Below are positions 16,363 through 21,481 of a stretch of 64,000 nucleotides of DNA, one piece after another. Each line of letters starts with the position of its first letter. Within the stretch, counting starts at the first letter, position 1. The DNA is from Sphingobium phenoxybenzoativorans (GTDB taxonomy: Bacteria > Pseudomonadota > Alphaproteobacteria > Sphingomonadales > Sphingomonadaceae), in assembly GCF_001757355.1 (NCBI RefSeq), contig NZ_MINO01000006.1:1-64000 (forward strand). Reading direction: 5' to 3'. A program made the translations under genes and the position numbers. The notes beneath the pieces were generated by a model, which did no database searches, had not been told where the DNA came from, and was given only the letters and a program-made list of their open reading frames with translations.

Positions 16363-16566
16363 TTACATCGCGTTGGCAGCGTTCTCCGCAACATTTGCAG
16401 CGTTCGCAGCCACGTCAGCAGCGTTGTCTGCAACAGCAGCGGCGTTGTCCACAACATTCTCGATGGCTTCGTTAGAAGCGTTCGCGGTCTCGTTGGCGGG
16501 CGTCCCACCGCAAGCGGCGAGCGCCATCAGGCCGGCCGAAGCGAAAACAATGGCGATCTTCTTCAT
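16363..16566 (-). CDS. Small alanine-rich lipoprotein with heptad repeats
   Basis: A 67-residue lipoprotein. The signal peptide ends in the lipobox LAAC (Cys about residue 20), so the mature protein has about 48 residues. These are mostly Ala, Asn, Val, Asp and Glu, with a seven-residue rhythm (VADNAAD, VAANAAN, VAENAAN) at about residues 41-64, suggesting one long amphipathic or coiled-coil helix. GGGAG about 10 nt upstream supports the ATG at 16566, and a strong terminator follows, so it is an independent transcript. The layout recalls small structural lipoproteins such as Lpp or entericidin, but no lysine is present at the C-terminus for peptidoglycan linkage. Confidence 0.8.
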   Translation of the reverse strand: MKKIAIVFASAGLMALAACGGTPANETANASNEAIENVVDNAAAVADNAADVAANAANVAENAANAM

Positions 16567-18220: not shown

Positions 18221-19906
18221 ATGTCCGCCTCCTCGCAATACGCCTATGTCATGAAGAGCATGACCAAGAGCTTCCCCGGCGCCGCGAAGCCGGTGCTGAG
18301 CAACATCAACCTGCAATTCTATCGCGGGTCCAAGATCGGCATTGTCGGCCCCAACGGCGCGGGCAAGTCGACCCTGATCAAGATCATGGCCGGCATCGAC
18401 AAGGATTTCAGCGGTGAGGCATGGCCCGGCGAGAACATCACCGTCGGCTATCTGCCGCAGGAGCCGCAGCTCGACCCGAACAAGACGGTGCTGGAAAACG
18501 TCAAGGACGGCGCGCGCGACATCGCGGACAAGATGGACCGGTTCAACGAGATCAGCATGATCATGGCCGATCCGCCGGAGGACGTCGATTTCGACGCCCT
18601 GATGGAGGAGATGGGCACGCTGCAGGAGCAGATCGACGCCGTTGACGGCTGGACGCTCGACAACCAGTTGGAAATCGCGATGGAGGCCCTGCGCTGCCCG
18701 CCGTCGGACTGGAGCGTCGAGAGCCTGTCGGGCGGTGAAAAGCGCCGCATCGCGCTCACCCGCCTGCTGATCCAGAAGCCGGACATCCTGCTGCTCGACG
18801 AACCGACCAACCATCTCGACGCCGAAAGCGTCACCTGGCTGGAAAATCATCTGAAGGAATATGCGGGTTCGGTGCTGATGATCACCCACGACCGCTATTT
18901 CCTCGACAATGTAGTCGGCTGGATCCTGGAACTCGATCGGGGGAAATATTTCCCGTACGAGGGCAATTACTCCACCTATCTGGAGAAGAAGGCCAAGCGT
19001 CTGGAGCAGGAGGACCGCGAAGCCACCGGCCGCCAGAAGGCGATCAATGACGAGCTGGAGTGGATTCGCGCCGGCGTGAAGGGGCGTCAGACCAAATCGA
19101 AGGCCCGTATTCGGAAGTTCGAGGAACTGGTCGCTGGCCAGGAAAACCGCTCGCCCGGCAAGGCCCAGATCGTCATCCAGGTGCCGGAACGGCTTGGCGG
19201 CAAGGTGATCGAGGCCAAGAACATCTCCAAAGCCTATGGCGACAAGCTGCTTTTCGAAAACCTCTCCTTCCTGCTGCCGCCGGGCGGCATTGTGGGCGTG
19301 ATCGGCCCGAACGGCGCGGGTAAATCGACGCTGTTTAAGCTCCTCACCGGTCAGGAGCAGCCCGATTCCGGTGAGATCGACATCGGTTCGACCGTGCGCC
19401 TCGGCTATGTCGACCAGAGCCGCGACCATCTCGACGGGTCAAAGAATGTCTGGGAGGAGATTTCGGACGGCCTCGACTATGTGAAGGTCAACGGCCACGA
19501 CATGTCGACCCGCGCCTATGTCGGCGCGTTCAACTTCAAGGGGCAGGATCAGCAGAAGAATGTCGGCAAGCTGTCCGGCGGTGAGCGCAACCGCGTCCAC
19601 ATCGCCAAGATGCTGAAAAAGGGCGGCAACGTCCTGCTGCTCGACGAACCGACCAACGACCTTGACGTGGAAACGCTGGGCGCGCTGGAGGAAGCGATCG
19701 AGAATTTCGCCGGTTGCGCCGTGGTCATCAGCCACGACCGCTTCTTCCTTGACCGCTTGGCGACACACATCCTGGCCTTTGAGGGCGACAGCCATGTCGA
19801 ATGGTTCGAAGGCAATTTCGAAGCCTATGAGGAAGACAAGCGCCGCCGCCTAGGCGACGCGGCGGATCGCCCAACCCGGTTGGCGTACAAGAAACTGACG
19901 CGATAG
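18221..19906 (+). CDS. ettA: Energy-dependent translational throttle protein EttA (ABC-F)
   Basis: A 561-residue ABC-F ATPase. Two nucleotide-binding domains are visible: Walker A GPNGAGKST near residues 43-51 and again in the second half, signatures SGGEKRR and SGGERNR, and Walker B LLLDEPTNHLD and LLLDEPTNDLD. Between them is the arm/P-site linker with the lysine/arginine-rich segment around GRQTKSKARIRKFEEL. There are no membrane segments. EttA binds the ribosomal E site and gates translation by ATP/ADP ratio in E. coli. The ATG at 18221 begins the conserved MSASSQYAYVMKSM; the same frame is open far upstream but only as antisense of the peptidase gene. Confidence 0.96.
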   Translation: MSASSQYAYVMKSMTKSFPGAAKPVLSNINLQFYRGSKIGIVGPNGAGKSTLIKIMAGIDKDFSGEAWPGENITVGYLPQEPQLDPNKTVLENVKDGARDIADKMDRFNEISMIMADPPEDVDFDALMEEMGTLQEQIDAVDGWTLDNQLEIAMEALRCPPSDWSVESLSGGEKRRIALTRLLIQKPDILLLDEPTNHLDAESVTWLENHLKEYAGSVLMITHDRYFLDNVVGWILELDRGKYFPYEGNYSTYLEKKAKRLEQEDREATGRQKAINDELEWIRAGVKGRQTKSKARIRKFEELVAGQENRSPGKAQIVIQVPERLGGKVIEAKNISKAYGDKLLFENLSFLLPPGGIVGVIGPNGAGKSTLFKLLTGQEQPDSGEIDIGSTVRLGYVDQSRDHLDGSKNVWEEISDGLDYVKVNGHDMSTRAYVGAFNFKGQDQQKNVGKLSGGERNRVHIAKMLKKGGNVLLLDEPTNDLDVETLGALEEAIENFAGCAVVISHDRFFLDRLATHILAFEGDSHVEWFEGNFEAYEEDKRRRLGDAADRPTRLAYKKLTR

Positions 19907-19952: not shown

Positions 19953-20049
19953 CGTCATCCCGGATTTGATCGGGGATCCACGGTCGCAAACGCTTGTGCG
20001 GTCACGCCGTCGTGGAGCCAATAGATCCCGCATCAGGTGCGGGATGACG
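19953..20049. repeat. REP-like palindromic element
   Basis: The 97-bp element is bounded by CGTCATCCCGGA (19953-19964) and its near-exact inverse TGCGGGATGACG (20038-20049). Each end also forms its own small hairpin (for example GATCCCGCATCAGGTGCGGGAT). The GTCATCCCGGA...GATCC pattern is a very common intergenic repeat in sphingomonads and other alphaproteobacteria. It lies 46 bp after the ettA stop and directly abuts the 11-bp array. Confidence 0.75.
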
Positions 20050-20061
20050 AAGGAGGTGGGA

Positions 20062-20175
20062 GTGCGGCCTGAGTGCGACCAACATGAGACACAAGTGCGA
20101 CTCAGATGCGGCTTGCATGAGACCAACATGCGACGCGAGTGCGACGCACATGAGACTCACCTGCGACGTGGATGA
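20062..20175 (+). CDS. Possible small repeat protein read through the 11-bp array
   Basis: A 37-codon frame starts GTG at 20062, 4-5 nt after a near-perfect Shine-Dalgarno (AAGGAGGTG, 20050-20058), and ends TGA at 20173-20175. Because three 11-bp units equal 33 nt, it encodes an 11-residue repeat: MRPECDQHETQ, VRLRCGLHETN, MRRECDAHETH, then LRRG. The same pattern (R..CD..ET) appears in another frame from an ATG at 20084 and stays open past the array. The Shine-Dalgarno could be chance, and the repeat pattern follows from the DNA periodicity, so translation is unproven. Confidence 0.2.
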   Translation: MRPECDQHETQVRLRCGLHETNMRRECDAHETHLRRG

Positions 20176-20304
20176 GACTCAAGTGCGACCCGGATGCGAC
20201 TCATGTGAGACGCAACTGGGACGTGAGTGCGACGCACATGCGACCTACATGAGACGCACACGCGACGTATGTGACACCAACATGCGACTTTTCTGCTACT
20301 TTGC
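20063..20304. repeat. Degenerate 11-bp tandem array, 22 units
   Basis: Twenty-two consecutive 11-bp units run from 20063 to 20304 with no insertion or deletion between units. The consensus is TG(C/A)GAC followed by five variable bases (approximately NYRNR). Across units, base 2 (G) and base 6 (C) are invariant, base 1 is T in 21, bases 4 and 5 match in 20, and base 3 is C in 14, A in 7 and G in 1. Base 3 follows the order CCA CCA CCA CA CCA G CCA CA CC, so units are grouped by threes (33 bp) with occasional loss or gain of one unit. It lies between the convergent 3' ends of ettA and acyP, directly after a REP-like element. I know of no named element with this structure. Confidence 0.9.
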
Positions 20305-20452
20305 CGCTCGAAACGCGTCACAACCCGCAACTTCCGCAACTTCGCTCGATCATCCTCTTTTCAACCGAGGGACAGGAGGCGGCCGGGCTACCCGAAGGCG
20401 CGGGAAAGTGAAGGCTGTTGTATCCTTGCCAATCCGGCCGGAAGCCGGGCTG
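20305..20452. other. Intergenic remainder after the array
   Basis: Two weak traces of the 11-bp rhythm may continue for one or two units past 20304, then the pattern is lost. GC-rich short inverted repeats (CCGGCCGGAAGCCGGG near 20437-20452) could serve as a terminator for neighbouring transcripts, but there is no T-run. I see no gene here. Confidence 0.4.
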
Positions 20453-20734
20453 TCACACCGTGGCGCGCTTCTCAAATCCCGTCAGTTCGGTCATGGCGGC
20501 ATCGCTTACTGCAATCCCGGCGACCCGCGCCGCCGATGGCCCGTCATGCGCCAGCGCGACAAACCGCTCGACCACGTCGGCTTCGCCCTGCACCACTGCC
20601 TCGACGGACCCGTCCATCCGGTTCCGCACCCATCCGGTCAGGCCCAGTCCCTTGGCGATGTCCACCGTCCAGTTGCGATAGAATACGTCTTGCACCCTGC
20701 CGCTTATCAACAGATGCCGGGCGATTACGGCCAC
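20453..20734 (-). CDS. acyP: Acylphosphatase
   Basis: A 93-residue acylphosphatase, which hydrolyses carboxyl-phosphate bonds of acylphosphates. The signature is SGRVQDVFYRNW near residues 11-22, with the catalytic Arg in FYR, and the catalytic Asn in GWVRNRMDGSVE near residue 38. The usual GRVQGV carries Asp in place of the second Gly here. The GTG start directly follows the TAA of the upstream gene (TAAGTG), so it is probably translated by re-initiation from the NYN-domain gene. Confidence 0.9.
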   Translation of the reverse strand: MAVIARHLLISGRVQDVFYRNWTVDIAKGLGLTGWVRNRMDGSVEAVVQGEADVVERFVALAHDGPSAARVAGIAVSDAAMTELTGFEKRATV

Positions 20735-21481
20735 TTACCGCACCCGCTTTACATAGACTTGCCCGCCCTCGCGCTTTTCCGTGACGAAATTGGGCACGGC
20801 TTCCATGAGGTCGGACAGCCGCTTGAAGCCATAATTGCGCGAATCAAAGCTGGACCGGTTCCCCGCGAGCTGACCCACCGTGCCGAGCAGCGCAAAGCCC
20901 CGTTCGTCCCGCTTGGCGCTGTCATAAGCATCGACCAGCAGCTTGATGAGTTCGTCATCAAGCTTGAGCGGGGCAGGGGCCTCCGCCGCGCCCGCCGTCG
21001 ATTCCTTTGAGGCTTCGGCAAGGGCCGTCTCCCGCCCGCCCAGCGCGGCAACGTCGATAAACCGCGTGCACGCCCGCCGGAATCCCTCCGGCGTATTGGC
21101 GGTGCCAAAGCCATAGACGGGAATGCCATCCTGCCTGATCCGCGTGACCAGTGGCGTAAAGTCGCTGTCACTCGACATCAGGCCGAAACCCTGAACCCGG
21201 CCGCTGAATAGCAGGTCCATGGCGTCGATCGTCATCTTCATATCGGTGGCGTTCTTGCCTTTGGTGAGGTCGAACTGCTGTTGCGGCTCGATCGCTTGGG
21301 TAATGGACAGGTTCGCCCATGTCTTGAGCGCGGGCTTGCTCCAATTGCCATAGGCGCGGCGGATATTCACCGTGCCCAGCTCTGCCAGTACGGTCAGCAC
21401 CGGGTCGAAATGCGCCGCCGACGCATTGTCCGCATCGATCAGCAGGGCGACATTGCCGCTGGGCGCTCCGTTGGACGACAT
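20735..21481 (-). CDS. NYN-domain RNase-like protein with C-terminal OST-HTH/LOTUS-like domain
   Basis: A 248-residue LabA/DUF88-type protein. The N-terminal NYN (PIN-like) domain carries the acidic residues expected of a metal-dependent ribonuclease site: LLIDADNA (about 13-20), KNATDMKMTIDAMDLL (about 75-90) and SSDSDFTPL (about 103-111). A variable linker rich in Ala and Glu follows (about 150-175). The C-terminal 75 residues (LIKLLVDAYDSA, GFALLGTVGQL, YGFKRLSDLMEAV) match the winged OST-HTH/LOTUS RNA-binding fold. It is predicted to act on RNA in the cytosol. It is coupled to acyP by TAAGTG; no functional link between the two is known to me. Confidence 0.88.
   Translation of the reverse strand: MSSNGAPSGNVALLIDADNASAAHFDPVLTVLAELGTVNIRRAYGNWSKPALKTWANLSITQAIEPQQQFDLTKGKNATDMKMTIDAMDLLFSGRVQGFGLMSSDSDFTPLVTRIRQDGIPVYGFGTANTPEGFRRACTRFIDVAALGGRETALAEASKESTAGAAEAPAPLKLDDELIKLLVDAYDSAKRDERGFALLGTVGQLAGNRSSFDSRNYGFKRLSDLMEAVPNFVTEKREGGQVYVKRVR

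Follow-up and report, generated by a model that had tools for sequence, protein, structure and literature searches.

What kind of sequence keeps one eleven-base phase through 22 successive units, with a nearly fixed hexamer and a varying spacer, between the ends of two convergent genes? The question is raised by a locus of Sphingobium phenoxybenzoativorans, analysed here within a stretch of 64,000 nucleotides (the window). A preliminary description of the window had taken the array for an element without a name, and this still holds: at the gathering score, Rfam matches two tRNAs in the window and nothing at the array, and no matching paper was found in the open-licence literature searched. 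Two points absent from that description are added in this study, namely that the array is one module within a dispersed element whose tail is conserved, and that similar arrays are located inside phage genes.

Structure of the array and its surroundings

The features of the locus are collected in Table 1. The 22 successive units follow one another with an indel count of 0, and every one of them has G at base 2 and C at base 6, as first reported. The core TG(C/A)GAC, described as present throughout, occurs in most units; those that deviate are units 1 and 5 (TGCGGC), 15 (TGGGAC), 19 (CGCGAC), 20 (TGACAC) and 22 (TGCTAC). Tandem Repeats Finder displays the array only as overlapping degenerate rows with periods of 11–55. 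The array is far above chance expectation. The concern that such phased runs might be no commoner than in a control is answered by a 3-unit pattern, which has 60 + 54 exact matches (114) in the 5.04-Mb genome and 0 + 0 in the reversed control. A 4-unit pattern matches in one of 199 family genomes, which is the genome studied here, and a 6-unit pattern with up to three mismatches matches in 2 of 94 genus genomes only.

Table 1. Features at and around the array, in positions of the window
Feature	Position	Strand	Basis or remark
Upstream gene, ends towards element	18221..19906	+	start picked by eye within longer frame
Unrelated palindromic repeat (TCATCCCGG...CGGGATGAC)	19954..20048	.	occupies the place of the 5' box CTGTCCTACA of most other copies
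22-unit array TGVGAC+N5, 11-bp period	20063..20304	+	sequence; reversed control = 0 matches
ORF, 308 aa, through array; 11-aa repeat CDxx[AE]Tx[MV]Rxx; putative translation	20084..21010	+	ORF translation, comparison among copies
3' tail module ending CCCGCAACTTCCGCAACTTCG (exact match 20324-20344), two 9-bp direct repeats	20305..20344	+	alignment of 10 copies of this genome
Downstream gene, ends towards element tail	20453..20734	-	ORF

Statistics on 193 units from ten arrays of this genome refine the picture. Positions 1, 2, 4, 5 and 6 each hold a single base in 94–98% of units, and position 3 is C in 107, A in 71, G in 14 and T in 1. The spacer is constrained rather than free, with A at position 7 in 4/193, G at position 8 in 3/193, T at position 11 in 6/193 and A at position 9 in 144/193. 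The view that the spacer is much less well conserved than core and spacing is therefore sustained, whereas bases 7–11 are not "almost free", since positions 7, 8, 9 and 11 are biased. A simple satellite was rejected on the same 193 units, in which variation is unevenly spread between core and spacer. Arrays of this kind comprise 4–23 units. Fixed-phase tandem direct repeats, as required of an iteron origin, are present; the exceptions in phase are a 10-bp unit in copy L018, a phase break in L206 and an insertion ahead of the tail in L011.

The upstream gene presumably encodes an ABC-F ATPase of the EttA type and the downstream one what we take to be an acylphosphatase-like protein. Both end towards the element, so that the convergent gene ends noted at the outset are real; the accompanying label "not coding" needs qualification, as the array lies inside a stop-avoiding ORF. 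Window positions 20250-20350 gave no match in a plasmid collection. Elsewhere in the window (16376-16457, minus strand), a 21-bp tandem repeat of 3.9 copies codes for the NAAN-rich tail of a small lipoprotein-like frame. Where relatives without the element (L268, L270, L274, L276) have kept this gene neighbourhood, other sequence separates the two genes. Downstream of the acylphosphatase gene, L268, L270, L271, L274 and L276 have a conserved GTTTTAGGAGAGGATGCCTGAAAGGC adjoining a terminator-like hairpin where the window has its array, and this stretch is perhaps a small RNA gene.

Two readings at the RNA level were weighed at this point. A structured RNA, one of the guesses in the preliminary description, was rejected: folding z-scores of ten copies on both strands (40 shuffles each) run from +1.0 to -3.4 with no consistent signal, and Rfam has no match. 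The lowest value, -3.4, is that of the window copy on the plus strand, to which the palindrome before the array contributes. A Rho-dependent terminator, in which the transcript from the tail-side gene would carry UC every 11 nt in a rut-like manner, is suggested by 1.84 YC dinucleotides per 11 nt, compared with 0.61 for the opposite strand (ten arrays), and by a tail side that often faces a STOP. However, C barely exceeds G on that strand (0.30 versus 0.27), relatives with the same neighbours have no array at the window locus, and the fixed hexamer, the stop-free frame and the copies facing a START would be left unexplained, which makes termination the least probable of the explanations that we weighed.

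A dispersed element and its inheritance

The array represents one of the forms taken by a dispersed intergenic element. An alignment of the ten arrays first found in this genome (G000) revealed the 3' tail in 10/10, together with a 5' box, CTGTCCTACA. A sequence-only tail model (R1), the search filters of which lose some weak matches, located 16 copies with array and tail in G000 and 8 in a second genome, G267, which we infer to be the MAG of Sphingobium sp. nzgw534; the 92 other genomes among the 94 of the genus gave none. All 24 array copies share a common orientation and the 3' tail, which is identical in 22 of them and one base off in 2. Unit order is partly common to L014, L017 and L018 (GTGGA, GCAC., CCAAG and GT.GG in succession), and the copies are therefore homologous blocks rather than independent amplifications.

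The tail is also found by itself. With up to two mismatches it occurs 27 times in G000 (16 with an array, 11 without), 11 times in G267, 14 times in G201 and, as single matches that look like chance, in G219 and in G251; a reversed-tail control gave 1–2 matches in five genomes, other or the same. At one mismatch the tail is present in 5 of 397 family genomes, and among the four besides G000, G112 has 3 matches and the other three have chance-like matches in coding sequence. In G201 (L214-L243), a CAACG tail variant precedes 7 of the 9 inspected tails and no array accompanies those inspected; the G201 tails are perhaps an older branch of the element. Several of the 11 array-less tails of G000 have a hairpin, AAGTTGCGGG...CCCGCAACTT, just ahead of the tail repeat. 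The distance from the 5' box (up to one mismatch) to the tail is 125–188 bp in 10 of these 11 copies and 163–427 bp in most array copies, reaching 617 bp in L199; the box is absent in the window copy and in L244, and present in L044, the G267 ortholog of the window locus. As candidate terminal inverted repeats, CTGTCCTAC (up to one mismatch) occurs upstream in 25 of 27 copies, and GTAGGA or GTTGGA follows the tail in some copies only.

Certain ideas on these modules were dropped. The 5' box was considered as a general promoter, and the bipartite pattern TGTCCTACN{9,15}TGNT has 25 matches in G000 (22 at element copies) against 17 in the reversed control, which in five other genomes is mostly equally frequent or more so; these control counts indicate that the pattern is not specific by itself. 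A relationship between the tail and the TTGCAANNNTTGCAAC sites at the same locus in relatives was abandoned too, since TTGCAANNNTTGCAAC is not a dispersed family, with 0–2 exact sites per genome and 2–10 at up to one mismatch (10 genomes).

Comparison of the two species points to vertical inheritance. Of 11 G267 loci, nine can be aligned to loci of G000 over 1.5–7.3 kb at 78–91% identity. Arrays are found in both species at 6 loci, including the window locus (L044/L016), and the hairpin form in both at 2; at one locus, 19 units in G000 (L013) face the hairpin form in G267 (L212), and thus array and hairpin alternate at one locus between species. The remaining L206 and L209 of G267 have no partner among the 27 G000 loci compared. 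The orthologs L207 and L010 differ by an indel of exactly one unit, and in this one clean pair (the others align less cleanly) there are 4/84 core versus 8/70 spacer differences, which is not significant (p 0.14).

Such a distribution calls to mind a neutral or selfish intergenic repeat of the MITE or BOX type, with the array as a slippage-amplified passenger of coding descent whose frame is a relic, tolerated between convergent genes. We regard this as unlikely, although it deserves serious weight. Copies lie mostly beside gene 3' ends (STOP on the tail side in 19/27 and on the 5' side in 19/25, as estimated by an approximate ORF rule that admits some false frames), the element is lineage-restricted (2 of 94 genus genomes), L203 has an imperfect terminal inverted repeat, TGTCCTAC/GTAGGACA, and unit number varies over the whole 4–23 range. 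Nevertheless, drift would not freeze five core positions while others vary, the boundaries of 22 copies exhibit no target-site duplication at both ends but only chance-like 5–9 bp matches, and a search of the Y1 family found no linked transposase. A Y1/RAYT transposase as the driver was rejected, because G000 has a single broken copy unlinked to the repeats; G267 and G201 have none. The broken copy is at G000:C18:59598-59950, in a locus of about 3 kb without element boxes.

The dispersed set also bears on a centromere- or nucleoid-type site like parC of plasmid R1, which a ribbon-helix-helix or similar protein would coat in order to position the DNA. One-turn tandem repeats at many chromosomal places fit this idea, but no par genes (parM/parR operon) were recognised by eye beside the window array, and 16 sites on scattered contigs, in a family confined to 2 of 94 genus genomes, make it very improbable.

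A stop-free frame on top of the DNA motif

Among the arrays of at least six units, 19 of 21 have a stop-free forward frame, the exceptions being L011 (3 stops) and L013 (1). Stops per frame, sorted and summed over arrays, amount to 4, 53 and 75. Base 3 of the codon-phase units in the chosen frame is C in 91, G in 14, A in 3 and T in 2, and the stop-making A is thus found in 3/110 against 97/211 in the other phases. When the same frame picking is applied to shuffles, the summed minimum class count is 2 versus 15.8 ± 2.1 (5000 shuffles, lowest 7); six single arrays give p 0.01–0.13, and pooled p-values are too small because arrays within a genome are related. Base 3 identity at lags 3, 6 and 9 is 0.50–0.53 versus 0.33–0.39, and the spacer shows no such rise. 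This period of three in base 3 without one in the spacer indicates a reading frame, and a 33-bp higher-order repeat was accordingly rejected.

Third codon positions are frozen too: GAT replaces GAC in 1/110 cases in array frames versus 63/178 in eight window frames (p 1e-14), a DNA constraint on top of the frame. No start, stop or tail frame is conserved among the copies, the tail being read in all three frames. The arrays therefore possess both a DNA motif and a stop-free frame, with no sign of a finished gene. Such a double constraint, of frozen silent sites and a stop-free frame, would be as expected for iterons inside a phage initiator gene.

That stops are avoided in this frame could instead reflect a translated repeat-peptide gene family, with the frame under protein selection and an 11-aa repeat CDxxETxMRxx. 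One copy of this genome is a predicted 191-aa protein (P0001), a metagenome copy is P0002, and the frame reaching the 5' box reads PVLH in 10 copies. We nonetheless hold this family to be improbable: start, stop and tail frame are not conserved, the 5' box is in another frame in some copies, the Arg codons are CGA/AGA, which make up 9/169 Arg codons in eight window frames, synonymous third positions hardly vary, L011 and L013 contain in-frame stops, and P0001 has no Pfam or PHROG match.

Arrays within phage genes and in other genomes

A five-unit scan of viral contigs gave 17 stretches, 11 of which have nearly identical units and are plain satellites. In one viral contig (L355), six TGCGAC+N5 units lie inside a 445-aa frame; its three spacers all occur in chromosomal arrays, and the last 22 bp of its array are identical to the ends of the arrays L014 and L197. 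The array is in frame shortly after a likely helix-turn-helix, and the protein matches Pfam helix-turn-helix models weakly (E 0.017 and up), as it does replication-initiation PHROGs (E 0.06–0.09, up to 0.086). The homologs P0005-P0010 align along their length and have RPxCDxxATxxRxxCD at the same place, and the array-coded residues R, P, C, D, A, T, R, C and D are invariant in the derived profile (A3). Eight homologs, all compared as protein sequences, reach the array region, P0011 and P0012 without the repeat; P0013-P0016 do not extend that far. The family was found in one contig only among the viral contigs, and 50,697 phage records contain no homolog at E 1e-5. At E up to 0.1, profile A3 matches only the arrays of G000 and G267 in these two genomes and 8 others of the genus. 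Sneathiella L070 also has an array inside a gene, the protein of which matches first an unnamed family (E 4e-36) and then the DnaD-like helicase loader phrog_2514 (E 4e-21).

Looser scans yield a mixed collection. A four-unit scan of viral sequences gave 78 stretches. Spacers are varied in 27 of 79 arrays, and most of these are not covered by a clear initiator frame; a wider public four-unit scan, biased to the pattern, gave at least 115 stretches, in which many TGMGACN5 matches are plain satellites. Varied-spacer arrays occur in Achromobacter (L031, L053), Archaea (L097, L101, L105) and viral L429, some of them beside possible helix-turn-helix genes with weak family matches. The Achromobacter arrays (L031 7304-7402, L053 5927-6036) are TGAGACN5 arrays of 9–10 units with mostly different spacers, adjoining conserved terminator-like and GTATAC motifs (by eye), and that of L031 presumably lies near prophage-like genes. 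Short TGAGACN5 arrays of Woesearchaeota (L097, L101, L105) and viral L429 lie in, or no more than about 130 bp away from, the frame of a small protein that has C[SA][KR]A[TS]FYRY towards its end and may contain a helix-turn-helix; no family match was firm. A Dehalococcoidia MAG of Chloroflexota (OY282365.1) has at least 19 array stretches of the TGCGACACYTA type (including L024, L029, L030, L042, L043 and L045), with flanks common to the two stretches inspected, and these are a second, unrelated dispersed 11-bp family.

Origin and possible role

The explanation that we prefer, with a rough probability of 0.45, is that a phage-iteron-type array, which binds protein, is carried by an intergenic element that is dispersed in the genome and inherited vertically. 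An array bound by protein on one face of the helix, already among the early guesses, would remain the best idea. The arrays are read as iteron-type because the demands of a DNA site and of a code are both satisfied, yet no such gene was found: profile A3 located no cognate initiator gene beside or around arrays in ten genus genomes. The L355-type phage protein may be a replication initiator, judging from its likely helix-turn-helix, the array position and the weak matches. The chromosomal array may descend from the iteron segment of such an initiator gene, as the 22-bp identity with L014 and L197 and the stop-free frame suggest, or else mimic it. A helix-turn-helix protein would then sit on each TGVGAC, one per turn, and spread head to tail. 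As to the role, which is less certain, the array would most likely bind an initiator-like protein entering or made in the cell, the element being otherwise tolerated between convergent genes. On the opposing side, the amino-acid likeness of the arrays to the L355 family follows partly from the DNA motif itself, and no AT-rich stretch lies beside the 24 arrays, where the maximum AT share of any 40 bp is 0.50–0.65 and the overall share 0.35–0.45.

A more specific and doubtful idea is that the arrays are chromosomal origin decoys, in which 16 loci with 256 phage-type iterons would tie up, by titration or handcuffing, the initiator of a phage or satellite that infects the cell. A laboratory precedent stands in the available text of one study, where lambda replication is blocked by plasmid-borne lambda iterons together with oop and O titration is considered as a cause (PMC3349717). 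If true, decoy arrays would be an anti-replication defence written only in DNA, free of protein; if a host protein binds, they would offer a clean system of one-turn-spaced sites at many loci. The open-licence literature searched yielded no description of arrays that are dispersed over a chromosome and bear the double constraint of in-gene iterons while lacking the gene.

Comparison with known systems

BOX, MITE and REP-type repeats are dispersed, intergenic and modular. The arrays resemble them in these respects, and several array-less copies have a hairpin; the element differs in its 11-bp phased centre, and neither end duplications nor a linked transposase were found. The unit length of parC of plasmid R1 is 11 bp. 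In the parC/ParR system, as far as the consulted part of the source goes, a direct-repeat array is bound by one protein (PMC4949242); binding is putative for the arrays here, which in contrast have no recognised parMR neighbours, many chromosomal copies and a stop-free frame. BldC, a MerR-like protein, binds cooperatively head to tail at tracts one helical turn apart and variable in repeat number, according to the accessible portion of PMC5859096. Its operators are like the arrays in direct repeats, one-turn spacing and variable number, with binding again putative on our side; the BldC site in the same portion is AATTXXXX(C), in few repeats and at promoters.

Iterons are the closest counterpart. 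PLE iterons are a further example, within the available text of PMC8263062, and the lambda origin has four 18-bp iterons within gene O, by the available part of PMC3349717. Whereas the arrays described here have 4–23 units and are free-standing at many loci, without a gene or an AT-rich stretch, they resemble the iterons of phage initiator genes (lambda O and, putatively, the L355 family) in that one tract of tandem direct repeats combines DNA sites with an open reading frame.
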